A DNA stretch of 64,000 nt from Sphingomonadaceae bacterium PASS1 (GTDB lineage Bacteria; Pseudomonadota; Alphaproteobacteria; Sphingomonadales; Sphingomonadaceae): contig NKIR01000008.1 in assembly GCA_002255985.1 (NCBI GenBank), forward strand, positions 62,001 through 126,000. Direction: 5' to 3'. The translations under genes and the position numbers were made by a program. The first letter of the stretch is position 1. Each line of letters opens with the position of its first letter. The notes under the pieces were generated by a model, which had not been told where the DNA came from, ran no database searches, and saw nothing but the letters and a program-made list of their open reading frames with translations. This document shows positions 1-13,265 of the stretch, piece by piece.

Positions 1-22
1 GTCGAAGCGATCTACCGGTTCC

Positions 23-2710
23 CTAACCGCTATTGCGCAACGCCGTCGCTATCGCGTTAATCGTCAATTGAATGCCCTCGCCAATCCGTTCGTCGGCTTC
101 ACCGGCGCGGTGGCGTTTCATGAGTTCGATTTGGAGCAGGTTGAGGGGCTCAATATAGGGCAGGCGCAGGCGGATGGAATTGTTCAGCGCCGGGTTGGCC
201 TCAAGCAGGTGGTTTTGGCCGGTTGCCGCTAGCAGGCTGTCGCGTGACGCGTGCCAGCCGCCCTTGATGCGGCCGAACAGATCATGCGCAAGCGCCTGAT
301 CCTCGACCAAGCCAGCATAATGTGCAGCGATGCCCATGTCCGACTTTGCCAAAACCATTTCCATGTTGGCGAGGATGGTTTGGAAGTATGACCACTCGCC
401 CGCCATCGCGCGCAGAAGGCCCTTGTCCGCAAAATCGGCCAGCGCTTGTCCGGTGCCGTACCAGCCGGGCAGCATGACGCGCGCCTGCGCCCATGAAAAT
501 ACCCACGGGATGGCGCGCAAATCTTCAATGGCGTCGGACGCGGTGCGGCTTGAAGGCCGCGATCCGATTTTCAGCGTCGCGATTTCGTTGATGGGCGTCA
601 TCTGGCGGAAAAATGTGCGGAAGCCTGCGGTATCGTACACCAAGCCGCGATAGTGGCGGAAGGCACTGGCCGAGAGTTCAGCCATCGCCGCCTTGAACCG
701 CGCAACGTCGGCACCGGCAATCGGGTCGCTCGACAGCGTGGCGAGCATTGTCGCCGACGCGATGGTTTCAAGACTGGTGACGGCATTGTCGACCGTGCCA
801 TATTTGGCGGCGATGACTTCGCCCTGTTCGGTAATGCGGATGCGGCCCTGCACGGTGCCTTGCGGCTGCGCGAGGATTGCACCGAAGGCGGAGCCGCCGC
901 CCCTGCCCACTGCGCCGCCGCGTCCGTGGAACAGCTGCATCGCGACGCCTGCGTCGGCGAACACGCCCGCCAAGGCGCTCGATGCCTCATATAATTCCCA
1001 CGTGGATGTGAGGTAGCCACCGTCTTTGTTCGAATCCGAATAGCCAATCATCACTTCCTGATGCCCGCGCGCCTTGGCCAGCGCCTGCATCATGGGAATT
1101 TGGAAAAAGGCGCGCATGGTTTCGGGCGCAGCCTGAAGGTCGGCGATGGTTTCAAACAAGGGCACCGACATGATGGTCGCGCTTGGCTGGCCATCCTCGT
1201 CCATGCGATACAGCCCCGCCTGTTTCAGCATCACATAGACTTCGAGCATGTCGGAGACGCTGGTCGTCTTGCTGATATTATAGGTCGTGATGGCCGCGTC
1301 ACCGAAATCAGCCTGCGCCTTGGCCGCAGCGCGGACGATGGCGAGCTCCTTTGCCGTCTCCGCGCTGTAGTGCGTCCAATCGCCCGCGAGCGGACGATTG
1401 TGCGACAGTTCGGCAACAAGCAGTTCGACCCGCGCACCTTCATCCAACGCAAGATAATCCGGCGACACGCGGGCAACGCGGAACAGCTCGGCGACGACAC
1501 GTTCGTGCACATCGCTGTTCTGGCGCAGATCGAGCGTCGCCAGGTGGAAGCCAAATATCTCCACTGAGCGGATGAGCCGCGCCAGTGCGCCGCCGCTCGA
1601 AAGCGCACCATCGCCATCGCTGGCCAGACCAGACGCCACAGTGACAAGGTCCCTGCGCAGTTCGTCAGGGCCGCCATAGGGCTGTCCTGAGAGGCTCGAG
1701 GGGCGCGGCGGTTGATCGCCAACCAGTTTGATATGTGTCGCTGCCAGACGCGCGTAGATGCCCGACAGCGCCCGCCTATAGGGTTCGTCCGCGCGGCTTG
1801 GGGCAGTGTCGCCGCTCTTCTCGGCCAATGCCTGCACAGGCTCGGGCGTATCACTCATCAGTGATGAGATCGAAATTTCCGCGCCAAGTTTATGGATCAG
1901 CTCAAGATAATGACGAATGGCCGTGCCGCCGTTACGCGCAGTGGCATAACGCAGCGTTTCGGCATCCACGAAGGGATTACCATCGCGGTCGCCGCCAATC
2001 CAGGTGCCAAGCCGCACAAAACCGGGGGGACGTCCGCCAAGCGCCTTTTCCCAACCAGCGTAAAGCTTTGGCAGCGCGGTCAGAAAGACATCCTGCATCG
2101 TCGCGCGGGCATTCTCGATCTCGTCCGCCACAAACAGCTTTTCGCGGCGCAGTGGTCGCGTCTGCCACAGAAGCGCAATCTGCCGGTAGATGGCCGCGTC
2201 TAGCTCATCGCCATCTTCAGTCACCGTCTGCCCCTGATCACGCAGATCCATCAGCTTTGCGATCCGGTTTTTGTGGTCAATGATGCTCTTGCGCCGCACT
2301 TCGGTGGGGTGTGCGGTCAGCACGGGCACGATCAGGCTGTGGCCAAGCATCTCGCGGATGTCGGTTAGGGCAACCCCCTCCGCCATAAGCCGCGCGCATG
2401 CTTCGGCAACCGTCGCGCCGTCCTCATGCGCTAGGCCCTGCCGATCCTCTGCCAAATTGGCCAGAAGCGAGAAGAGCATGAACCCGCGGACGAAGTTGAG
2501 CGTGTCATTAAGGCTGAGCGCACCAAGGCCGCTGTCGCTCGCCTCGGCACCTTCAACTTTGCGAAAACGATCAACGCTCGTCGAGCGTATATATTCGGTC
2601 TGCCGGAATAATTTTTCCCCGCCATAGGCGCGAATGACGTCCCCCAGCATCTTGCCGAGGAACCGGATATCCGGATTTTGCGAAATGGCTTGCGTGTTTT
2701 GACCGTTCAT
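23..2710 (-). CDS. ppc: phosphoenolpyruvate carboxylase
   Basis: Carboxylates phosphoenolpyruvate with bicarbonate to oxaloacetate, an anaplerotic cytosolic step that feeds the TCA cycle. The protein is about 895 residues, the usual bacterial length. Family signatures are visible: LTAHPTEVRRKS with the catalytic His near residue 134, the IGYSDSNKDGGY segment, and the glycine-rich FHGRGGAVGRGGG loop in the C-terminal half. I start at the internal Met beginning MNGQNTQ because the 13 upstream residues are not family-like; the ribosome site is weak, so the longer start at 2749 stays possible. The gene ends 22 bases from the window edge with its stop included. It is transcribed away from rplU, in the same direction as the small lipoprotein gene behind it. 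Confidence 0.96.
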   Translation of the reverse strand: MNGQNTQAISQNPDIRFLGKMLGDVIRAYGGEKLFRQTEYIRSTSVDRFRKVEGAEASDSGLGALSLNDTLNFVRGFMLFSLLANLAEDRQGLAHEDGATVAEACARLMAEGVALTDIREMLGHSLIVPVLTAHPTEVRRKSIIDHKNRIAKLMDLRDQGQTVTEDGDELDAAIYRQIALLWQTRPLRREKLFVADEIENARATMQDVFLTALPKLYAGWEKALGGRPPGFVRLGTWIGGDRDGNPFVDAETLRYATARNGGTAIRHYLELIHKLGAEISISSLMSDTPEPVQALAEKSGDTAPSRADEPYRRALSGIYARLAATHIKLVGDQPPRPSSLSGQPYGGPDELRRDLVTVASGLASDGDGALSSGGALARLIRSVEIFGFHLATLDLRQNSDVHERVVAELFRVARVSPDYLALDEGARVELLVAELSHNRPLAGDWTHYSAETAKELAIVRAAAKAQADFGDAAITTYNISKTTSVSDMLEVYVMLKQAGLYRMDEDGQPSATIMSVPLFETIADLQAAPETMRAFFQIPMMQALAKARGHQEVMIGYSDSNKDGGYLTSTWELYEASSALAGVFADAGVAMQLFHGRGGAVGRGGGSAFGAILAQPQGTVQGRIRITEQGEVIAAKYGTVDNAVTSLETIASATMLATLSSDPIAGADVARFKAAMAELSASAFRHYRGLVYDTAGFRTFFRQMTPINEIATLKIGSRPSSRTASDAIEDLRAIPWVFSWAQARVMLPGWYGTGQALADFADKGLLRAMAGEWSYFQTILANMEMVLAKSDMGIAAHYAGLVEDQALAHDLFGRIKGGWHASRDSLLAATGQNHLLEANPALNNSIRLRLPYIEPLNLLQIELMKRHRAGEADERIGEGIQLTINAIATALRNSG

Positions 2711-2775
2711 TGCCCAAGTTGTGCACATGGGCCGCGCGTAGGCAAGCAAATGCGCTTATGCGGAGCAGGGAATAG

Positions 2776-3282
2776 CTATTCCCCTATCAGGCCGGAAAGG
2801 CGGCGGATTTCATCATTTTGCACGGCGACATCATCTGCCACCGGTTTTTGGGCATCGGTTAGCATTTCGGCCAGCCCCGAATCACCCGCATTGGCATCCG
2901 CAATCAAACTATCAAACGCGCGAACGGCCGCGACCGAATCATCACGCATTTTATCGAGCCGCGACAATACAACATGCGCATTGACCCACGCTTCACTCCC
3001 GGGGGCGCTTCCCGCTGCACGTGCGGCCACAGCGCGCACAGCGTCACGGCGTTCTAGATAGGCCGCGTGCGCGACCTGATGCCGCGCAAGCAATGCATCA
3101 ACCTGCGCACTGAGCTCCACGGGCAGGGAAACCGGCGCTGCTTGCGGTGTTATGGGCGCGGCTATGGCGTCATTATTCTCGTAGGCGCGCCGCTCAAGCG
3201 AGGGAAACTGCCCGTCTATACTGCCGCATGATGCGAGCAGAATGAAGGGCGTCAGACGAAGCATTGGCTTGATAATCGACAT
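2776..3282 (-). CDS. hypothetical lipoprotein
   Basis: A 168-residue protein I do not recognise by family. It starts with a hydrophobic signal (FILLA) ending in a lipobox with Cys near residue 19, so it is probably lipidated and anchored in the inner or outer membrane. The mature part is Ala-, Asp- and Arg-rich and looks helical, possibly coiled, with no catalytic motif. It lies upstream of ppc on the same strand with a gap of about 65 bases and may share its transcript. It diverges from rplU across a 206-base region. The lipoprotein call rests on the N-terminus only. Confidence 0.75.
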   Translation of the reverse strand: MSIIKPMLRLTPFILLASCGSIDGQFPSLERRAYENNDAIAAPITPQAAPVSLPVELSAQVDALLARHQVAHAAYLERRDAVRAVAARAAGSAPGSEAWVNAHVVLSRLDKMRDDSVAAVRAFDSLIADANAGDSGLAEMLTDAQKPVADDVAVQNDEIRRLSGLIGE

Positions 3283-3354
3283 ATGGGGTGTCTAAACCTG
3301 CCGCCACGCCCATGCAAGGGCCGCGCAATCGGGCTTGCCGGCGGGCAAAAGGCG

Positions 3355-3383
3355 TTGACAGGATGAATTCCTTAGCCTAGCTG
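3355..3383 (+). promoter_or_regulatory. putative sigma-70-type promoter of rplU-rpmA
   Basis: A perfect TTGACA -35 hexamer at 3355-3360 is followed after 17 bases by a weak -10 (TAGCTG, 3378-3383). This places a start about 100 bases before the rplU ATG. The leader is long enough for L21-type regulation, but I see no defined element in it. The -35 is convincing and the -10 is poor. Confidence 0.4.
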
Positions 3384-3488
3384 CGCCCCTTCTTGCGTGA
3401 CCTCCCAAGATTCGTCTTTTGGAGTAACGCGTTTGAGCAACCGCGCTTCAAAAGGGCGCTAAGCTGTAGAAACGGATGAGTTATAGCC

Positions 3489-3884
3489 ATGTTCGCAATC
3501 GTGCGCACAGGCGGCAAGCAGTATCGCGTAGCCGCCGGAGACAAAATCGCAGTTGAAAAACTGTCTGGTGAAGCGGGTGACAAGATCTCGCTTGGTGACG
3601 TACTGTTGGCCGGTGACGGCGACACAGTGCAGGACGTGAACGGCCTGACCGTTTCTGCCGAAATCATTGCGCAAGAGCGCGGCGAAAAGGTGATCGTTTT
3701 CAAAAAGCGTCGTCGCCACAATTATCGTCGTAAGCAGGGCCATCGTCAGTCACTGACGCTGCTGCGTATCCTCGCCGTCGGCAAGGAAGAGAAGAAGGCC
3801 GCTGCGCCGAAAGCCGAAAAGGCTGAAGCCGCGCCAAAGAAAGCCGCTGCGCCTAAAAAGGCCGCAGCTTCAACGGAAGCTTGA
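3489..3884 (+). CDS. rplU: 50S ribosomal protein L21
   Basis: Structural protein of the large ribosomal subunit that binds 23S rRNA. The first ~100 residues match L21 from the opening [14 protein letters not shown] through the [16 protein letters not shown] segment. The protein runs to 131 residues because of a low-complexity Lys/Ala/Glu tail after about residue 98. Such a tail is common in alphaproteobacterial L21, and it may be disordered. rpmA follows 31 bases downstream, the conserved rplU-rpmA order. Confidence 0.97.
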
Positions 3885-3915
3885 GCGGCAACGCTCTGAG
3901 TTAGGAGTTTAGACC

Positions 3916-4185
3916 ATGGCACATAAAAAAGCAGGTGGTTCGTCACGCAACGGTCGCGATTCAGCAGGCCGTCGCCTTGGCGTTAAGAAATTCGGTGGCG
4001 AAAGCGTCATCGGTGGCAACATTATCATCCGTCAGCGCGGCACCAAGGTTTATCCTGGCGCAGGCGTTGGCCTTGGCAAGGACCACACTTTGTTCGCGCT
4101 CGTCGCGGGCCGCGTGCGCTTCCACGCTGGTAAACTTGGCCGCAAATATGTGTCGGTCGACATGGCAGCCGCGGCGGCCGAATAA
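3916..4185 (+). CDS. rpmA: 50S ribosomal protein L27
   Basis: Ribosomal protein whose N-terminal arm reaches toward the peptidyl-transferase centre. It has 89 residues, the usual length, with the typical start [16 protein letters not shown] and the GVKKFGGE and [12 protein letters not shown] motifs. A ribosome site (TAGGAG) lies 8-9 bases before the ATG. It follows rplU in an operon and is followed by a run of hairpins ending in a terminator. Confidence 0.97.
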
Positions 4186-4200
4186 ACAGGACAATCGATA

Positions 4201-4275
4201 CCGGGTTGTCCAGACGGATGACCCGGAAATCACATGAGGTGGTTTCCACCTTTGAACAGGGAGACGGGTCATCCG
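4201..4275 (+). promoter_or_regulatory. nested and competing inverted repeats after rpmA
   Basis: Three overlapping inverted repeats lie here. CCGGGT (4201-4206) can pair with ACCCGG (4221-4226). AGGTGG (4237-4242) pairs with CCACCT (4246-4251) across a TTT loop. An 11-bp perfect repeat pairs 4215-4225 with 4265-4275 and encloses the second hairpin. The third pairing competes with the first and uses the loop of the terminator that follows. The pairing is direct sequence observation. Any regulatory role is inference. Confidence 0.5.
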
Positions 4276-4291
4276 GTCTCCCTTTCTTTTT
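4258..4291 (+). terminator. rho-independent terminator of rplU-rpmA
   Basis: An 8-bp stem AGGGAGAC (4258-4265) / GTCTCCCT (4276-4283) is followed at once by TTCTTTTTG. It lies about 75 bases after the rpmA stop and before the acetyltransferase gene. Confidence 0.8.
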
Positions 4292-4385
4292 GTCTCATTC
4301 TCCCTGTTCTCAGCCTCCTGCAGAGGAACTGTAACATGGCTGTCGCTTTGTCATGCAAGGGGCGGCACAGAACCGGAGAGAAACG

Positions 4386-4976
4386 ATGTTCGCAAGAACC
4401 GAAAGATTGTTATTGCGGCCCAGCTGGGCCGAAGATGCGGGCGAGCTTCATCAGGCCATCGCCGATGAGGGCATTGTCCGCAATCTTGCGCGCGCGCCTT
4501 GGCCCTACACGGCGGAGGATGCCGTGCGCTCCGCAACGCAAGAGCATGACGCGCAATTCCCTTCCTTTTTGATGATGCTGCGTACCAATGGCGCGCCGCG
4601 CCTGATCGGCGCGTGCGGTATTGGTAACTTAAATGGCGAGGCCGAACTCGGCTACTGGATCGGCAGGCCATATTGGGGATTGGGCTTCGCCACCGAAGCC
4701 AGCCGCGCCGTCGTCGAAATAGCAAAGACTATCGGCCACAAGAAATTGGTCGCGAGCCACTTCACCGACAACCCCGCGTCGGGCAATGTTTTGCGCAAGC
4801 TTGGCTTTCAAAGCACCGGCAAGACCGCGGTTCGCCACAATAATGGCCGCGGCATTGCCACGACATGCGCGCTGTACGAACTGTCGCTCGACGCGACGAC
4901 CACTGACGATGGCGATATGCGAAACATAGCCCCCCTCGGTATGCGGGAATATATGGAGCGCCTGCAGGCGGCGTGA
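4386..4976 (+). CDS. GNAT family N-acetyltransferase
   Basis: Probable acetyl-CoA-dependent N-acetyltransferase of the RimJ/RimL-like branch (Acetyltransf_3 type). The opening TERLLLRP, the central GEAELGYWIGRPYWGLGFATEA motif with its acetyl-CoA loop, and VASHFTDNPASGNVLRKLGF are typical. The substrate is unknown. I take the Met at 4386 rather than the in-frame one at 4353, because it follows a GGAGA ribosome site and begins at the conserved first strand. It has 196 residues. It stands alone between the rpmA terminator and manC. Confidence 0.88.
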   Translation: MFARTERLLLRPSWAEDAGELHQAIADEGIVRNLARAPWPYTAEDAVRSATQEHDAQFPSFLMMLRTNGAPRLIGACGIGNLNGEAELGYWIGRPYWGLGFATEASRAVVEIAKTIGHKKLVASHFTDNPASGNVLRKLGFQSTGKTAVRHNNGRGIATTCALYELSLDATTTDDGDMRNIAPLGMREYMERLQAA

Positions 4977-5220
4977 GCGGCATTTAAACCTGACCTCGAT
5001 AGCCGAAAATCGTTGCCTTACGACATCACAAAAGTTGTTATGGGTTGGTGTCAGTAAGCTCACCGCAAAGTGGTCTGCCATAACAATGCCCCAATATAAG
5101 AGTTATTATTCTAAACCGCGCTCTCAAGTGAGCGAATAGAAATGGGTTTTTGTATTTGACCGACAGCATAACTTCCGCGACATCGTTGCGATGTGCAGAT
5201 TTACTGAAGAAAGATAGCTT

Positions 5221-6255
5221 GTGACCATAACTCCTGTTATTTTGTCGGGTGGCGGTGGAACACGGCTGTGGCCAATGTCTACGCCGCAAATGCCTAAACA
5301 GTTTCTGGCATTGACGGGCTCGCGCACGATGTTCCAACTGACAGTCTTGCGCGTGATGGACAGGGAGCAGTTTGCGGCTCCCGTCATCGTAGCGAACGCC
5401 GCGCATGCTGAGATTGTTGCCGAGCAGTTGGCCGAAATCGGCGTTACCGACGCCATCATTTTACTTGAACCCTGCGCGCGAAACACGGCGCCTGCAATTG
5501 CGTTGGCGGCACTCGCGGGAGATGCACCAGAAAACGTCATGCTGGTGATGCCGAGCGACCATGTCATTAAAGATGAGGCTGCGTTTCACGCGGCGACGGA
5601 CGCCCTTTTACCGAAGGTACAAGATGGGTGGCTCGCCACGTATGGTATCAATCCGACGGGGCCAGAGACAGGATATGGCTATATCCAAATGGGATCCAAA
5701 ATTGAAAGTGGCGTCCATGAAGTGAAACGCTTTGTCGAAAAGCCTGACGCCGCCAGCGCTGCGGCCATGATAGACGGCGGCGACCATGTTTGGAATGGAG
5801 GCATATTTCTGTTTCGCGCCGATACCTACTTAGGCGCCGTTGCAGAATATGCGCCCGAGATGGGTGCGGCCGCGCGCCTTGCGATGTCCAAGGCCGAACG
5901 AAGCGGTAATGAATTACACCCCGACCATGAAAGCTTTGCCGCCTGTCCGGCGGACAGTATCGATTATGCCATTATGGAAAAGGCGCCCAAGGTTGCGGTC
6001 GCGCCGGTGGGCATGGGATGGTCAGACGTAGGCAGCTGGGACGCATTGTATGAAATCGGCAACAAAGATGCAGACGGAAATGTATCATCGGGTGCCGTTC
6101 GCATAGATACCAGCCACGGGAACCTTATCCACGCCAACGGTATTCGCGTTTCGGTGCACGGCGTTGAGGATTTACTGATTATCGCAAACGGCAGTGAGGT
6201 GATGATCCTGCCGCGCGGGACGAGCCAAAAGGTTCGGGATTTCGCCAAGGACTGA
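5221..6255 (+). CDS. manC: mannose-1-phosphate guanylyltransferase
   Basis: Makes GDP-mannose from mannose-1-phosphate and GTP, for exopolysaccharide or lipopolysaccharide. The nucleotidyltransferase signature GGGGTRLWPMS lies at residues 9-19 and FVEKPD near residue 171. A GTG start is the only reasonable one, because the first strand TPVILSGG follows directly. At 344 residues it has only the transferase domain and lacks the C-terminal cupin phosphomannose isomerase domain of the longer bifunctional enzymes. The matching phosphomannomutase lies at 19639. It stands alone behind a 244-base gap in which I see only a short hairpin (5119-5134). Confidence 0.94.
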   Translation: MTITPVILSGGGGTRLWPMSTPQMPKQFLALTGSRTMFQLTVLRVMDREQFAAPVIVANAAHAEIVAEQLAEIGVTDAIILLEPCARNTAPAIALAALAGDAPENVMLVMPSDHVIKDEAAFHAATDALLPKVQDGWLATYGINPTGPETGYGYIQMGSKIESGVHEVKRFVEKPDAASAAAMIDGGDHVWNGGIFLFRADTYLGAVAEYAPEMGAAARLAMSKAERSGNELHPDHESFAACPADSIDYAIMEKAPKVAVAPVGMGWSDVGSWDALYEIGNKDADGNVSSGAVRIDTSHGNLIHANGIRVSVHGVEDLLIIANGSEVMILPRGTSQKVRDFAKD

Positions 6256-6311
6256 CGCAAAATATTGCGCAGCGGTTGACATGAGCTTCAGGCGGCAACT
6301 GGAGCCACCGT

Positions 6312-8267
6312 TTAAGCTGCTGAGGCTCCGACGTTGCTGTCGACGTTCGGTTGGTACTCTGGAACCAGATCGCGCAGTAGGCTGACGGCTGCGTCGCGGT
6401 TGCCGTCGTGGACATGCTTTTCCAGCTGGTCGAGTGCTGGAGATAGGTCACGCCATTCCATGTGGCCCTCCATTGCTTGCATGATCCGCTGATGCTTGGT
6501 CGGCATCGGGTTCTCGCCAATCAGCAGCTCTTCGAAAAGCTTCTCCCCAGGACGTAGGCCAATTTCTTCAATGGCAATGTCGCCATCGGGATTATTGCCA
6601 TCCCGCACCGTCAGGCCGGACAGATTTATCAACGTGCAGGCCAAGTCATAGATTTTAACGGGCTTGCCCATGTCGAGGACAAAAACCTCGCCGCCATTCG
6701 CCATGCTTCCCGCCTGAATGACAAGCTGCGCGGCCTCGGGAATGGTCATGAAGTAACGGATGATGTCCTTGTGCGTCAGAGTGACTGGGCCGCCATTAGC
6801 GATCTGCTCTTTAAAACGCGGTACCACGGAACCGCTTGAGCCCAGCACGTTGCCGAAGCGCACCATCGTGAAGCGCGTCTTTGATCCCACTTTGGCCTTA
6901 GCCTGCAAAATCTGTTCACACACACGCTTGCTTGCGCCCATGACATTGGTCGGCCGCACGGCCTTGTCGGTACTGATCAGGATGAAGTGAGATACCTCGT
7001 TTTGCTCGGCCGCCTGCACCAGATTGCGGGTGGAGATGATGTTATTCCCCATTCCCGAGAGAGGGTTATGTTCGACGAGAGGGACATGCTTGTAGGCAGC
7101 GGCGTGGAATAGTGTGTCGGGGCGATATGCGGCGAGGAGCGACGACACGGGGCGCGCGGCTGTCGTGTTGATTAGCTCTGGATGAATTTCGATGTCGGAC
7201 CGGAAAATACCCGAGGCGGCATTCTCTAGCAGCTCCTGCTCGATTTTATACAATGCGTATTCTGTCATCTCAACGAGAACCAGCCTCCGCGGGCCTATCG
7301 CCATAATCTGACGGCACAATTCACTGCCGATCGAACCACCGGCACCGGTGACCATGACGGTCTTGCCGACGATGGTGCGCCCCAATAGCAGATCATTAGG
7401 CGCGACTGCGTCGCGGCCGAGCAAGTCATCCACTTCGACTTCGCGTAAATCGGCGATCGAAACCTTGCCCGCGACAATGTCCTGAATTTGGGGAAGCGTC
7501 TGCACATGGACGCTGAACTGCTTCAAGTCGTCTACTATGCCCTTGCGCTGGCTACGGCTCATCGATGGGACGGCGAGCAAGATGTCGGTAACGTCCAAGC
7601 GCTCCACTTCCGATGCAAGTTCACTCGAGTGAAATACTGGACTGCCATCCAGACGCTGACCGCGTAGGCGCCTGTCATCATCGACGAACCCCAAGAGATA
7701 CATGCCTGGATAGTGGCGCGTCGACAATGCAAGCTGCTGCCCCGCACTGCCCGCGCCGTAGATCAAGACACGTTTTGTAACGCCGCCAAAGGCCCGCTGT
7801 CCCAGCAAGTCACTGATTATGTAGCGTACCATAATTCGGCTGATGACCAGTGCGAGGAAGAATAATATTGGCACCAAAATCCCGACTGTACGCGGCACCC
7901 CCGACAATCCGAAAACAGTAAATATGAGCGTCATCGCGACTAGGAAAATGGCAATCGCGCGGGAAAGCTCGATGATCGTGCCCGAGCCTGCGAAGCGGAA
8001 AATCGAACGGTATACGCCGAGAGCAAAAAAGAGCGGCGGCCAGATTAAGAAGGAGGCGAGTAATACCGTTCGGATCGGCCCATTCCAAAGCTGCCAGTCG
8101 CCCAGGCGCAGTGAGAAAGCCAGCCAAACGGCAAGTATGCAAATGACTGCGTCGCTTGAAAATGCGATGATTTTTTTGGCGCGGCGATCAAGGTCTGCAA
8201 CTTCAGACAGAAGCGCGATAATGGGTTCCGAAAATTTATCTGCAGACGATTTACGTTTACTCGACAT
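6312..8267 (-). CDS. CapD/WbpM-type nucleotide-sugar dehydratase, membrane-bound
   Basis: Polysaccharide-biosynthesis dehydratase or epimerase acting on UDP-N-acetyl sugars (FlaA1/WbpM/PglF group). It has 651 residues. The N-terminal ~150 carry several membrane segments. A first Rossmann-like domain follows (VLIYGAGSAGQQ), then the catalytic SDR domain with VTGAGGSIGSELCRQI, the segment LISTDKAVRPTNVMGASKR, and a C-terminal LRPGEKLFEELL motif typical of this family. The enzyme probably sits on the inner face of the cytoplasmic membrane. It converges with manC and fits a surface-glycan role with manC and the epimerase at 13888. The exact sugar product cannot be read from the sequence. Confidence 0.92.
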   Translation of the reverse strand: MSSKRKSSADKFSEPIIALLSEVADLDRRAKKIIAFSSDAVICILAVWLAFSLRLGDWQLWNGPIRTVLLASFLIWPPLFFALGVYRSIFRFAGSGTIIELSRAIAIFLVAMTLIFTVFGLSGVPRTVGILVPILFFLALVISRIMVRYIISDLLGQRAFGGVTKRVLIYGAGSAGQQLALSTRHYPGMYLLGFVDDDRRLRGQRLDGSPVFHSSELASEVERLDVTDILLAVPSMSRSQRKGIVDDLKQFSVHVQTLPQIQDIVAGKVSIADLREVEVDDLLGRDAVAPNDLLLGRTIVGKTVMVTGAGGSIGSELCRQIMAIGPRRLVLVEMTEYALYKIEQELLENAASGIFRSDIEIHPELINTTAARPVSSLLAAYRPDTLFHAAAYKHVPLVEHNPLSGMGNNIISTRNLVQAAEQNEVSHFILISTDKAVRPTNVMGASKRVCEQILQAKAKVGSKTRFTMVRFGNVLGSSGSVVPRFKEQIANGGPVTLTHKDIIRYFMTIPEAAQLVIQAGSMANGGEVFVLDMGKPVKIYDLACTLINLSGLTVRDGNNPDGDIAIEEIGLRPGEKLFEELLIGENPMPTKHQRIMQAMEGHMEWRDLSPALDQLEKHVHDGNRDAAVSLLRDLVPEYQPNVDSNVGASAA

Positions 8268-8474
8268 TTTTATGAAACAGTCCGCTGTATCTTGCTAGTC
8301 ATCTTTTCGATGGCGCACTGGTATAACAATGCGGTCCCAGTTTCAAGTTAAGTAGCGGTCAGCTTGGCCATTCCCGTTTATTCGAAAGCCATGAGAATCC
8401 CGTCTGTTCAGGGAGCCTTGTCAGCAGGCAAGTCGATTGAATTGGAATTTCGCAAAGCATTAGGGTGAAACCCT
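8268..8474. other. intergenic region upstream of the dehydratase gene
   Basis: About 200 bases between the start of the dehydratase gene and the hydrolase-derived fragment. No convincing ORF is present. It probably carries the leftward promoter of the dehydratase gene; a TTGAAA/TATACC pair on the minus strand near 8325-8345 is badly spaced and not convincing. Confidence 0.4.
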
Positions 8475-8662
8475 GCGCGTTCCGCGCTGATCGTGGCGAG
8501 GTTGGCTTCACCTTGCACGAGTAGCAAGCGGTCGTCTTGGTCCTAGGGATGGAAGCTGGTGCGGAAGAAGGGCGTCAAGGGACGCTGGAAATTGCGGCCA
8601 ATGCCACTTTTGCAGAAGCCTGAGCGCAGGACGCCGCGTATGGATTTCCACAAGCCAACCCC
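8475..8662 (-). pseudogene. decayed 3' fragment of a metal-dependent hydrolase gene
   Basis: This 188-base stretch aligns without gaps to 12219-12406, the 3' end of the intact hydrolase gene, in the same orientation with a constant offset of 3744 bases. By hand I count about 80% identical bases. Read on the minus strand in the matching frame it gives RGVLRSGFCKSGIGRN and later DQDDRLLLVQGEANLA, against RGVLRSGFGKNGIGRN and DQDDRPLLAQGEASLA in the intact protein. The conserved Trp codon (TGG, 12287-12289) is a TAG stop here (8543-8545), and the normal stop has been lost. Nothing of the upstream part of the gene remains. It is the left flank of the Slam/TbpB-like cassette. Confidence 0.85.
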
Positions 8663-8771
8663 ACATGCAGCCCAGAATGCGAAGTACAGTTTCATTTAAA
8701 AAATTTCCGCAACATATTGATTCTTGCATCCGGAATGATAGTCGGTGCTCCGACCGTTGGGAGGTAAATAG

Positions 8772-10658
8772 ATGAAAAAGTCGGACATTGTTTATTTGAT
8801 CGCTGCAACGGCGATGGTTGCAGCTTGTGGTGGCGGTGGAAGCGGCGGCGGTGGCGGCGTGGCTCCGATCCCTGCTCCTCCTCCAGCGCCTCCGCCTCCG
8901 CCACCTCCTCCGCCGCCACCTCCTCCGCCGCCGCCGCCAACCACGGCGAACGCGGACTTGCTCAATCTTACGCAGAGCGAAAATTTTACAAATAATGCGG
9001 TCACTGGCATCGGCGACTATCCAAAGTCCGGCGCTAACGGCGCGACGGATGCCTCAACCGTGGCGCTGACCGTCATATATGACGCGGCCAGTCGCTCGTA
9101 CACGATTTCCAATCCGTCGCGATCGCAGAGCTTCGCCCCGGCCACGCGCGACACGACGCTCAGCAATGCACAACAGGATGTCTTCAAGGTGGTCAACGGC
9201 AACGTCACCGACACGCTGACACTCAGCAAGCCTGCGACAGTGGGGGCTTTGACCTATCAATATGTTGGCTCGGGTTTCTGGCAGCGGACGACCGACAGCG
9301 CGACAGCGATCAGTGCCTTCATCGACGCCTTTACCTATGGCGTAGAAACCACCGACGCCGCGATGCGCAGAACGGGCGCGGCGCGCTTTGACGTCGATCT
9401 GTTAGGAACAACCGCATATTCAGACCTTCCGGCGCGGTTACAAGGCTCCGGCACACTAGAGGCTGATTTCGAGACCTTTCTGATCACGACACTGATACCG
9501 ACCACTGAATATTTGCCCACCGGCTCGAGCAACCTGGGGCCCGCCTTTCAGGGCACCGCTACAATTTCGTCCAGTCTAAACGGCTTCAGTGGCCAGTTTA
9601 ACATGGGGTCGTTCCAGAACGGAGCCTGGTCAGGTCGTTTTTACGGCCCTAATACAAGGGAAGTTGGAGCAACGTTTTCCGCGCGAGCAAACGGGGGCGC
9701 TATAGCCACTCTCGGCACGATAACCGGTCGCTACGCCGCAGACATTGCCTCGAAAGCGACCAACAAAAACCTCGTCAACCTCACCAAAGACACTTTCTTT
9801 GTAAACAGCGGCGCCTTCGTCGGTTACAACCGCAAGGACGGCACCAACGAGCTGGCCCAATACCCCGGCAACGGTGGCGGTGCCAATGTAAACGCGAACG
9901 TCAGTTTTAGTTACAAGGCCGATACGCAAACTTACAGCTACGGTCCTGAACCCCTGATTTTCAGCGGGGGGCCCGGAGGTCAATCTTACTCGTTTGGTCC
10001 TGGGCAATTATCGGCCGCGCTGTCAGACTCCAAGTTCACGACCTATCAGGTTGTCAACAGCGGCCAGACCTCTACGCTGAAGCTTTACAAGCCCGCCGGT
10101 TCAAACTCCGAACTGCAATTAAGCTACACCGGCTTTGGCCATTTCACCAATATCGGCACGGCAAGCGGAGGCAACCAGGCGGCATTCGAACGGTTTTTTA
10201 TCTATCGTTTGCCGGATAATGCAGGCGGAACGGTAGGAGTTCCGCGCACGGGCAGCGCAAATTTCGGGGCTAAAATTTATGGCATCGCCACAGAAGGTAC
10301 GGGAACCTTTGCACATTCGCTCAGCGGCGACGCGAATTTTGCATTCAACTTTGCCAACCAGAACTTCACTGGCTCGATGACACCACTCGGCACCAACCGT
10401 GATACGGGGGCTACCCGCAATTGGGGTAGCTTCAACTACAGCGGTAACATATTTGGTTTCACCAACCAGTTCGACGGGCGCATCGTTCAAGGCACAACCG
10501 ATGTCGGCAGTTTGTTTGGTTGGCTGCTTGGCCCTGCGGCCGATGAAGTTGGCGCGAATTTTGTTATAGGTCCACTAAACGTCGGACAGATCGGCAACCA
10601 GTGGAGCTTGCGCGGCGTGTTGATTGGCAAGAAATGTCCTACTGCTACACCGTGTTGA
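8772..10658 (+). CDS. TbpB-like two-lobed surface lipoprotein (predicted Slam cargo)
   Basis: A 628-residue lipoprotein. The signal peptide ends in a VAAC lipobox (Cys19), followed by a Gly-rich stretch and a run of about 17 prolines near residues 40-57 that can act as a stalk. The rest is two similar halves. They begin DLLNLTQSENFTNN and NLVNLTKDTFFVNS, share VVNGNVTDTLTLSKPA and VVNSGQTSTLKLYKPA, and each ends in a beta-barrel signature: FYGPNTREVGATF near residue 287 and LLGPAADEVGANF near 583. The FYGP..EVGATF motif is characteristic of TbpB-type barrels (transferrin-binding protein-like family). A GGGAGG ribosome site precedes the ATG. The Slam gene follows after 30 bases, so this is probably its surface-exported substrate. 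The ligand is unknown; the barrel fold does not by itself imply transferrin. Confidence 0.85.
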   Translation: MKKSDIVYLIAATAMVAACGGGGSGGGGGVAPIPAPPPAPPPPPPPPPPPPPPPPPTTANADLLNLTQSENFTNNAVTGIGDYPKSGANGATDASTVALTVIYDAASRSYTISNPSRSQSFAPATRDTTLSNAQQDVFKVVNGNVTDTLTLSKPATVGALTYQYVGSGFWQRTTDSATAISAFIDAFTYGVETTDAAMRRTGAARFDVDLLGTTAYSDLPARLQGSGTLEADFETFLITTLIPTTEYLPTGSSNLGPAFQGTATISSSLNGFSGQFNMGSFQNGAWSGRFYGPNTREVGATFSARANGGAIATLGTITGRYAADIASKATNKNLVNLTKDTFFVNSGAFVGYNRKDGTNELAQYPGNGGGANVNANVSFSYKADTQTYSYGPEPLIFSGGPGGQSYSFGPGQLSAALSDSKFTTYQVVNSGQTSTLKLYKPAGSNSELQLSYTGFGHFTNIGTASGGNQAAFERFFIYRLPDNAGGTVGVPRTGSANFGAKIYGIATEGTGTFAHSLSGDANFAFNFANQNFTGSMTPLGTNRDTGATRNWGSFNYSGNIFGFTNQFDGRIVQGTTDVGSLFGWLLGPAADEVGANFVIGPLNVGQIGNQWSLRGVLIGKKCPTATPC

Positions 10659-10688
10659 TCTGCGGGTCGAACTGATCGCGCAGCCAAT

Positions 10689-12017
10689 ATGTCAAAAATG
10701 GTCCTGCTCGCGGCGATGCTGGTCGCCGCTTCCCCGAGCGCGCTGCAAGCACAATCGGCTGCACCTGAAAACGTAAGCGCCGCAGGCATTTCTGCGGTGC
10801 AAATGTTCGAAATTGCAGAAAAGGCAAAACAGGAGGGAAATTTTGCGGCCGCTGAAACTGTTTACGCAGCGCTGGTGAAAGATCCCGACATCGAAATCCG
10901 GACCGAGGCGCGCTTTCGCCTCGCCCAGATGCTAACCAGCCAAAACCGGTTTTCCGATGCAGCCATTATCTATCGGGCAATATTGGATGAAAAACCCGAT
11001 GCGCAGCGGGTGCGGCTCGAACTCGCATCGTTGCTGGCGCGTTTAGGCGATGTCGGCAGCGCGCAGCGCGAGTTGCGGTTGGCGCAGGCCGGCGGGTTAC
11101 CACCTGATGTGGCGCGGCTGATTGACCAATTTACCGACGCCCTGCGTGCGGGCAGGCCCGCCGGAGCGTCTGTCGAAATCGCGCTCGCGCCCGATAACAA
11201 CATCAACCGCGCCACGCGTTCCGAAACTTTGGACACGATCATCGCTCCATTCGACCTGTCCGAAGATGCGCAGGCTAAATCGGGGCTAGGTTTGGCGCTA
11301 AAGGGGCAGGCTTATGCCCGCGTCGGCATCGATAGCCGTGACCAACTATTGGTGAGATTATCGGGAAGCGCCGATCTGTATCGCGAAAGCCAGTTCGACG
11401 ATGTATCGGTCGGCATCCAAGCGGGTCCCGAAATGCGATCAGGCAAGGACCGATTGAATTTTTCAGGTGGGTTTAGTCAACGATGGTTCGGGGGTGAACT
11501 CTATTCAGAAATTATAAGCGCATCGGCCAATATCCAGCACCCATTCGGCACCAAGACGTTAATGACCGGCAATGTCTCGGTCAGTACTTTCGACAACAAG
11601 TCGAACGATCTGCAGGACGGTACAATCTATGCGGCATCGGCGGGATATGAGCGCGCATTTTCGTCGCGCTTCGGGGCAGGCCTCACATTGGGCGGGGTTC
11701 GGCAGGCGCTGAGTGATCCCGGTTACGCCACGACGTCGGGCGCGCTGTCCGCGTTTGCCTTTCGCGAACTGAGCGGAACCACGTTGGTGGCATCGCTAGG
11801 CTACAGCCATTTGGAAGCGGACGTACGGCTATTTCTGTTTCCCCGCCGCCGGATCGACGAACGGTACACGGCTTCGCTGGCTGCAACATTCCGGCAGGTT
11901 CAATATCTGGGGTTCGCGCCGATTTTGAGATTGGAATATGAGCGTAACGATAGCAGCGTCGGACTGTACGACTACAAGCGGATAGCCGGCTCGATAGGGA
12001 TTACCCGGGCGTTCTAG
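10689..12017 (+). CDS. surface lipoprotein assembly modifier (Slam, DUF560 family)
   Basis: Outer-membrane translocon of the type XI secretion pathway, which moves lipoproteins to the cell surface. It has 442 residues. A signal peptide covers residues 1-22, a TPR-like helical domain runs from about 35 to 150 (EKAKQEGNFAAAETVYAAL and following), and a beta-barrel runs from about 162 to the end. Family hallmarks are LAPDNNINRAT at the start of the barrel, FAPILRLEYERNDSSVGLYDY near the end, and a terminal Phe. It lies 30 bases behind the TbpB-like lipoprotein on the same strand, the usual cargo-translocon pairing. No TonB-dependent receptor gene is adjacent, unlike the classical tbp loci. The start is an ATG with a weak ribosome site, suggesting coupling to the upstream gene. 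Confidence 0.87.
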   Translation: MSKMVLLAAMLVAASPSALQAQSAAPENVSAAGISAVQMFEIAEKAKQEGNFAAAETVYAALVKDPDIEIRTEARFRLAQMLTSQNRFSDAAIIYRAILDEKPDAQRVRLELASLLARLGDVGSAQRELRLAQAGGLPPDVARLIDQFTDALRAGRPAGASVEIALAPDNNINRATRSETLDTIIAPFDLSEDAQAKSGLGLALKGQAYARVGIDSRDQLLVRLSGSADLYRESQFDDVSVGIQAGPEMRSGKDRLNFSGGFSQRWFGGELYSEIISASANIQHPFGTKTLMTGNVSVSTFDNKSNDLQDGTIYAASAGYERAFSSRFGAGLTLGGVRQALSDPGYATTSGALSAFAFRELSGTTLVASLGYSHLEADVRLFLFPRRRIDERYTASLAATFRQVQYLGFAPILRLEYERNDSSVGLYDYKRIAGSIGITRAF

Positions 12018-12214
12018 TGTCCGGACACCCCTTACATCTCGTAACGCAACCCCCAAACCGCCATCTGTGCGCTAACAAAGCGACATCTTGGGCTTTTGGA
12101 ACAAATATTAAACAAGCTGCTGCATATCACCCACCCCTATTAGGGGACTATAATCTCAAGGGCGTCGAATTGCAGACCAGCAACGCCGACAGGTCGCCAA
12201 GCGCATTCGGCAAA

Positions 12215-13084
12215 TTACGCGCGCTCGGCGCTAATCATCGCGAGGCTCGCTTCGCCCTGCGCGAGGAGGGGCCGGTCGTCTTGGTCCCAGGGGTGGAAAT
12301 TTGGGCGGAAGAAGGACACCCAGGGGCGCAGGACGTTTCGGCCAATGCCATTTTTGCCGAAGCCTGAGCGCAAGACGCCGCGTACGGATGTCCAGAAGCC
12401 GACACCATCCTGACGCAGCAGTTCGATTTGGCCCAGTGTGCGATTGATGAAGAAGCTCGTGGTAACCACCAGCATGAAGACGCTGCGCCACGCGTAGCGG
12501 CGGACGGCGCTCCAATCGCGGGTCGCGTAGTTCCAGGCATCGAATGCGACACCCTTATGCTCGACTTCCTCAACCGCGTGCCAGAGCCACAGCTCCCGCA
12601 TCTCATTGTCGACGCCCTCAAGGTGGTGCGGGTTTTTCAGAATTTCCGCGGCGATAATCGCGGTAAAATGTTCGATGCACATGGTCGCGGTCAGCTTTAC
12701 GGTGTCGCTCGCGTCTTTGAAAAACGAGACAAATGCCCGAATTTTGCTGTCGAGCGGCGCGATGTCGTAGCCTGCATCCGTCAGGCCCCTGTTCATCGCC
12801 ACATGCTCGCGGCTGTGCGCGGCCTCTTGCGTGATGAAGGCCTCAACTTCCGACTTTAATGGCTCAGGTACGCGGTTAACCCACGGCGCGAGGCTGCGGA
12901 TCATGAAGGTCTCGCCGTGCGGGAATATCGCCGAGAGCGCATTGAAAAATGCCGTCGCAAAGGGGTCCTGCCGAACCCAGTGCCGCTGGCGCGATATGCG
13001 CGGCGTCGCGTGAAAGCGGCGCGAAGAGATGTCGGGCTTGATTGTCAGGGCCGCAGGTTGGGCGGCCAATGTCGTCTGGTCCAT
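12215..13084 (-). CDS. metal-dependent hydrolase, PF10118-type
   Basis: Belongs to the predicted metal-dependent hydrolase family (COG3687/PF10118), a helical protein with conserved Glu and His residues as in ITQEAAHSREHVAMN and EEVEHKGVAFDAWNY. Its substrate is unknown. I start at MDQTTL (13084), giving 289 residues; the upstream Met at 13150 adds 22 non-family residues. Its 3' end (12219-12406) is duplicated as a decayed fragment at 8475-8662. It diverges from a TetR-type regulator across 181 bases, which suggests regulation by that protein. Confidence 0.85.
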   Translation of the reverse strand: MDQTTLAAQPAALTIKPDISSRRFHATPRISRQRHWVRQDPFATAFFNALSAIFPHGETFMIRSLAPWVNRVPEPLKSEVEAFITQEAAHSREHVAMNRGLTDAGYDIAPLDSKIRAFVSFFKDASDTVKLTATMCIEHFTAIIAAEILKNPHHLEGVDNEMRELWLWHAVEEVEHKGVAFDAWNYATRDWSAVRRYAWRSVFMLVVTTSFFINRTLGQIELLRQDGVGFWTSVRGVLRSGFGKNGIGRNVLRPWVSFFRPNFHPWDQDDRPLLAQGEASLAMISAERA

Positions 13085-13265
13085 GGGGTGAGAATACACC
13101 GGGCGCCTAAAGTTATCGTTAATGCTGGTAGTTAATACGCCGGAAGGCATAGCCTAGCTGTTGCTTGACAATGCAGGCGCGATAGAGCGGCCAAAATATT
13201 CAATGCTATTGGATAAGCAGGGCAATTGGCCTAACATCTGTAAACAAACTGACACACAGGCACTC

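Follow-up and report, generated by a model that had tools for sequence, protein, structure and literature searches.

The window, a stretch of 64,000 nucleotides from contig NKIR01000008.1 of the Sphingomonadaceae bacterium PASS1, carries at positions 8772 to 12017 two neighbouring plus-strand genes that we read, with considerable confidence, as a type XI secretion system (T11SS; Slam/DUF560) cassette predicted from its sequence and from structure models to export a lipoprotein. The first gene (8772..10658) encodes a TbpB-like surface lipoprotein of 628 amino acids, the cargo, and the second (10689..12017) a T11SS outer-membrane protein of the Slam/DUF560 family with 442 amino acids. Both reading frames, their common strand and the 30 nucleotides between the cargo stop codon and the Slam ATG are as given in a first-pass annotation made from the letters of the window alone. 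Its reading of the pair as a T11SS cassette is also supported, as both families exceed their Pfam cut-offs (SlipAM, PF04575 Slam/DUF560, with 48 bits against 22; TbpB_B_D with 29.3 bits against 26 in a scan of the cargo protein) and the models of both proteins agree with it. The resemblance goes well past what chance would give.

The cargo begins with a signal peptide and lipobox (8772..8828; VAAC, with Cys19 and a Gly at +2), read by eye by the lipobox rule; position 19 is a cysteine in all 35 rows of the homologue alignment that have a letter there, the remaining 15 of the 50 rows being gapped. It is followed by a proline stalk (residues 32-56, 8865..8939) in which 22 of 25 residues are proline, and then by two threonines. 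Both lipobox and stalk were noted in the first-pass annotation. The relatives P0009 and P0010 carry Pro-Thr-Ser repeats, and in P0001, a 97%-identical homologue of the cargo, the proline tract is shorter, so stalk length seems quick to vary. The AlphaFold2 model (predicted local distance difference test, pLDDT, 85) has two lobes made of a handle and a barrel, an N-lobe with an 8-strand barrel at residues ~61-326 (8952..9749) and a C-lobe at residues ~331-623 (9762..10640). The two TbpB-barrel signatures quoted in the annotation were located at residue 290 (FYGPNTREVGATF) and residue 585 (LLGPAADEVGANF). A sequence search of the PDB with the cargo led to TbpB (E 2e-5), and in structure comparison the modelled lobes matched TbpB, HpuA and haemophilin, which are the nearest folds, with an identity to the TbpB structures of about 15%.

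The Slam protein has an N-terminus that reads by eye as a signal, periplasmic TPR helices at residues ~36-133 (10794..11087), where Pfam TPR_16, TPR_19 and TPR_14 are over cut-off and the model has helices, a 14-strand outer-membrane barrel at residues ~158-441 (11160..12011), and a C-terminal Phe. The AlphaFold2 model (pLDDT 75.9) combines the TPR helices with 14 predicted strands, and 14 is the number of strands in the C-terminal barrel of Slam-type proteins. The hallmark motifs LAPDNNINRAT and DSSVGLYDY, also quoted there, lie at residues 166 and 421. The top Foldseek match of the model is the TPR-barrel exporter BcsC, the barrel part matches the structures of CymA and OmpG, and a PDB sequence search led to TPR-type chains. 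Homologue searches for the two proteins, which scored only the ~8,000 candidates with most shared words and reach down to identities of ~29%, gave 50 matches for the cargo, the last one an unrelated immunoglobulin-type protein, and 911 for Slam, 120 of them listed; for each protein 97%-identical copies were found.

The pairing of the two families extends beyond this locus. SlipAM and TbpB_B_D each occur at a single place in the genome (3.07 Mb in 30 contigs, 96% complete), in both cases at the cassette. Among 99 sampled genomes of the family searched at E 0.01, both families occur in 30, the cargo family only in 2, Slam only in 6 and neither in 61 (Fisher P 4e-17); SlipAM matches were found in 36 genomes (34 over cut-off) and TbpB_B_D matches in 32 (27 over cut-off).

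Some results count against the assignment. The sole TbpB_B_D stretch listed in the six-frame search of the genome scores 20.6, under the cut-off, as does Pfam TPR_Slam in the second protein (29.7, with a cut-off of 35.2). With the NCBIfam model slam_lipo, whose cut-off is 80, the cargo scores 24.6 bits, which places it outside the narrow family NF041636 (Slam-dependent surface lipoprotein, equivalog). In a mirror-tree comparison of 54 two-lobed pairs, from 53 loci and the window, the distances of cargo and Slam barely correlate (Spearman 0.06 for the C-lobe and 0.12 for the N-lobe), which is not like tight pairwise co-evolution, though saturation may explain the low values.

Proposed export route and known systems

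By analogy with work on Neisseria, the cargo would leave the cytoplasm through Sec, be acylated at Cys19 and be sorted to the outer membrane. A chaperone such as Skp would keep it unfolded, and Slam would recognise its C-terminal lobe. The chain would then thread the 14-strand barrel, and its two handle-barrel lobes would refold on the outer side, carried by the lipid-anchored proline stalk. The cargo is very probably displayed on the cell surface by Slam, and by analogy the C-lobe would be the part that Slam reads; for Neisseria, PMC9090332 proposes a C-terminal "specificity motif" that Slam recognises. Once displayed, the cargo might bind or attach to something environmental, most likely via its more conserved N-lobe, in a role that would need no dedicated neighbouring TonB-dependent receptor. 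We infer this binding role more weakly than the steps of transport, and give a receptor-independent role in binding or attachment something approaching an even chance.

Cassettes of this kind had already been predicted in print for sphingomonads, and the first-pass annotation rated the novelty too high: two papers describe the exporter subcluster (2021, PMC8406197) and the cargo architecture (2025, PMC12282271). The former reports subcluster 1C of DUF560/TXISS as "largely from environmentally isolated Sphingomonadaceae" and without characterised members at that time; the cassette resembles it in its Sphingomonadaceae origin, environmental setting and DUF560 protein, a likeness drawn from the published description. 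The latter describes a proline-rich, multi-TbpBBD "Sphingomonas surface protein" as a T11SS cargo, with 18 of 30 such cargos being lipoproteins. The cargo of the window resembles this architecture as a sphingomonad lipoprotein that is rich in proline at its N-terminus, has handle-barrel pairs in the described number of two to three (two lobes in our model, and two or three in relatives with the lobe patterns NC and NNC discussed below) and is encoded near a DUF560 gene. The published proteins are described with proline-threonine repeats, whereas the cargo of the window has a nearly pure proline run and the Pro-Thr-Ser repeats occur in its relatives P0009 and P0010. The same source places every T11SS protein verified as an exporter in the animal-associated cluster 1, which makes the use of T11SS in free-living bacteria an open matter.

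Among characterised systems, the pair resembles TbpB-Slam1 of Neisseria meningitidis in having a bilobed lipoprotein of TbpB fold and a Slam exporter. It differs in the absence of a TonB receptor from the contig, in its low identity to the TbpB structures and in a habitat that presumably holds no transferrin; nothing found here contradicts the annotation's view that the ligand is probably not transferrin. Unlike HpuA and the haemophilins (HphA, Hpl), the cargo is two-lobed and has neither a conserved histidine nor a linked receptor. In the parts of the T11SS/DUF560/Slam literature that the searches covered, neither a ligand nor a receptor-free pattern was found for sphingomonad cargos, nor, in what was covered of PMC12282271, a history of the site. 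A search for T11SS/DUF560/Slam with cobalamin, B12 or Sphingomonas had PMC12282271 as the sole on-topic paper among the matches listed, and DUF560 with Slam and Alphaproteobacteria gave no literature match. We regard four points as new: the lack of a receptor as the rule among multi-lobed cargos, the final position of the C-type lobe, the patchy gain of the cassette at a variable site and a rejected B12 clue.

Lobes, receptors and the role of the cargo

The related loci were studied in the best 80 of 135 confirmed Slam matches. A same-strand cargo open reading frame (ORF) lies within 1.5 kb of Slam in 70 of these 80 loci, the nearest one preceding Slam in 34 and following it in 36; of the ten loci that have no such cargo nearby, five lie so close to a contig end that under 320 bases remain there, and in one, L034, a cargo ORF is on the opposite strand. 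Two lobe profiles were used to call lobes as N-type or C-type in 85 classifiable cargo ORFs out of 88, the window included, and the patterns were NC in 38, NNC in 17, NCNC in 1, C in 25 and N in 4. The last lobe is thus C-type in 56 of 56 multi-lobed cargos, and 25 of 29 single-lobed cargos are C-type, a rule that loses some of its force for close relatives, where it is partly built in because both profiles derive from an alignment of homologues to the window's cargo and may include some of the very proteins classified. This order is what one would expect if the C-type lobe carries the export signal, and it agrees with the C-terminal motif proposed for Neisseria in PMC9090332.

The genome contains 45 Plug-domain matches, none of them on the window's own contig (126.6 kb), which bears out the earlier remark that no TonB-dependent receptor lies beside the cassette; as this leaves no adjacent TbpA-type receptor, we do not file the cargo as TbpB. 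Receptors in the related loci were counted with a profile built from 20 receptors of this genome, requiring full 6-kb flanks and separating single-lobed from multi-lobed cargos by ORF length (550 amino acids). When the loci with btu genes (see below) are excluded, an upstream same-strand receptor within 6 kb is present in 0 of 34 multi-lobed and 6 of 10 single-lobed loci (P 3e-5, a value that overstates independence because five of the six single-lobed loci share one Slam group). The window, having no receptor, therefore follows the rule for its class. If either side is allowed on the same strand, 3 of the 34 multi-lobed loci have a receptor, with about three expected from the receptor density of this genome. 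The corresponding contrast for all loci, with upstream same-strand receptors in 8 of 14 single-lobed and 6 of 41 multi-lobed cases (P 0.0035), was set aside as a link to cargo size since btu loci are mixed into it.

Six loci (L008, L023, L028, L047, L050 and L058) combine single-lobed C-type cargos with an upstream TonB receptor of one family, and their Slam group is sister to that of the window in a midpoint-rooted Slam tree. For the two receptors tested, those of L023 and L058, the siderophore-receptor family TIGR01783 comes nearest, with scores under its cut-off.

We tentatively propose, at somewhat less than even confidence, that the multi-lobed, proline-stalked Slam cargos of sphingomonads form a functional class that works without a TonB receptor. 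Such cargos would serve in display or attachment, with N-type binding lobes added onto one C-type export lobe, and would not be nutrient co-receptors like TbpB. This proposal is weakened by the relatedness of the 80 loci, whose statistics are hence not based on independent samples, and by the smaller contrast that remains when receptors on any strand within 6 kb are counted in the non-btu loci (9 of 34 multi-lobed against 6 of 10 single-lobed, P 0.067). A compact two-gene sphingomonad cassette that has no receptor, and whose relatives range from one to three lobes, makes a convenient test case for asking whether a C-type lobe alone can act as an export tag and whether TbpB-like lobes serve purposes beyond nutrient capture.

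A different role would be that of a nutrient co-receptor like TbpB or HpuA, working for a TonB receptor encoded elsewhere in the uptake of iron, haem or another scarce cofactor. In pathogens a protein with a TbpB-like fold is usually the partner of a TonB receptor; together with the 45 Plug-domain matches available in trans, this makes an unlinked partner possible and is a further point against the receptor-free class. The nearest folds of the cargo, TbpB, HpuA and haemophilin, and the six receptor-bearing loci of the sister group point the same way. On the other side stand the contig without a receptor and the complete lack of upstream same-strand receptors in the 34 multi-lobed loci. None of the cargo's His, Cys or Met residues is conserved in the 50-row alignment except the lipobox Cys and the start Met, and its two histidines are retained in 8 and 6 of the 50 rows. 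A haem or metal site was rejected for want of a conserved His or Cys beyond the lipobox, a result that argues against haem or metal bound through histidine but has no bearing on other ligands. We consider a co-receptor role possible but, on balance, unlikely. That the cassette is a non-functional relic, decaying after transfer, is extremely unlikely. A stop-bearing hydrolase remnant adjoins it, and a sigma-70 consensus scan, which is weak evidence, found no promoter-like plus-strand site in 8300-12300, but neither frame is broken or shortened, the lipobox and the C-terminal Phe are in place, and 97%-identical copies of both genes exist.

A more specific ligand was suggested by the neighbours of some related loci, as 14 of the 80 have btuF/btuC-type genes upstream: the cargo could bind corrinoids and pass them to BtuB, much as BtuG of Bacteroides is reportedly a corrinoid binder that hands over to BtuB. 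A cobalamin riboswitch (Rfam) is present in 12 of these 14 btu loci, the other two starting inside or past the receptor gene, and in four of them (L020, L025, L046 and L081) no recognisable gene lies from btuD to Slam or cargo, so that a few of the four may share the btu transcript. The receptor of L046 has TonB-B12 as its best family and BtuB as its best PDB match, and the genome of the window has one riboswitch-btu cluster, on contig C19. Against this, 31 of the 53 genomes in which both genes were counted have btuC and uvrA no more than 20 kb apart, and 25 of these 31 have no Slam between the two (a count based on 55 of 101 rows for btuC, namely the 54 best-scoring and one more, 61 of 94 for uvrA and 43 of 46 for Slam, three under cut-off being excluded). 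Of the 14 btu loci, 9 have a minus-strand gene that separates btuD from Slam, and none is among the 31 other rows of the window's Slam tree group; the window has no Rfam match, and the TonB-B12 scores are under the curated cut-off. Since the neighbourhood mostly occurs without Slam, the Slam-cargo pairs in the btu-uvrA interval are near btu genes by place, and B12 was rejected as a clue to the ligand; we regard corrinoid binding by the cargo as very unlikely.

The cluster of btuB-btuF-btuC-btuD with a cobalamin riboswitch beside uvrA (L015, L020, L025, L046, L081 and others) appears as an old neighbourhood of the family in which Slam-cargo pairs sometimes reside. The intervening gene between btuD and Slam is a relative of M3 peptidases in seven loci, an M13 peptidase in L015 and of LigT type in L045; L006 has both M3 and M13 peptidase genes, and L067 is undecided. 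The btu cluster on contig C19 has neither cargo nor Slam. Rfam found the cobalamin riboswitch in none of the 8 other loci tested, and a profile built from the 12 riboswitches recovers just those 12 across the 80 loci and the window.

History and distribution of the locus

The sequences suggest that the cassette was gained horizontally in one lineage of a Sphingomonadaceae genus, within a strain-variable segment. A close relative of this Slam is found in only 1 of 45 genomes of the genus, the present one, two further matches being 29% identical, and at E 1e-100 relatives occur in 48 of 397 genomes of the family. The nearest named relatives in the 80 Slam loci are sphingomonads (Novosphingobium, Sphingomonas, Sphingopyxis, Erythrobacter and kin), in agreement with the host proposed in the first-pass annotation. 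Two close relatives that lack the cassette, G108 and G125, keep the outer flanks in order and are missing the stretch 6258..12218, which comprises a CapD-like gene, a hydrolase remnant, the cargo and Slam. In G108, the closest genome found (~91% DNA identity), window positions 1-6257 including manC are followed by 111 bases and then by window positions 13093 onwards. In all seven genus genomes compared, drawn from 21 others with a hydrolase match, the acetyltransferase side (window ~4.8-5.0 kb) adjoins the hydrolase (window 12.2-13.0 kb). The whole block 4977-12217, taken as the insertion from the comparison with G125, was narrowed since G108 has manC at the same place; manC, which was found in 34 of the 45 genus genomes, is hence not necessarily part of the gain.

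A direct repeat brackets the cassette: a gene for a metal-dependent hydrolase has its 3' end intact at 12218-12409, and a remnant of this end, 64 codons with an in-frame TAG, lies at 8474..8665 on the minus strand. The remnant is 78.6% identical to the intact copy, against whose 3' end a range of 79-80% was also obtained, and 78.6% identical to that of G125; the intact copy and the G125 copy are 84.9% identical to each other. Two copies of the hydrolase end around the cassette fit its acquisition through recombination at a variable site, with the order of events left undecided. The guanine-cytosine content of the cassette (56%) is slightly under that of the flanks (58-60%); the window gave no tRNA or Rfam matches, and no search aimed at transposases was made.

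Two further observations concern other genomes of the family. In G008, five adjacent TbpB-type cargo ORFs (331-413 amino acids; G008:C2:629557-634858) lie on a different contig from the genome's only Slam match, possibly as a cluster served in trans. SlipAM also occurs in unusually long open frames in G083 and G081 (G083:C6:40700-41539, 1067 amino acids; G083:C23:19614-20495, 690; G081:C8:36509-37348, 685), which are perhaps fusions or merely long frames.

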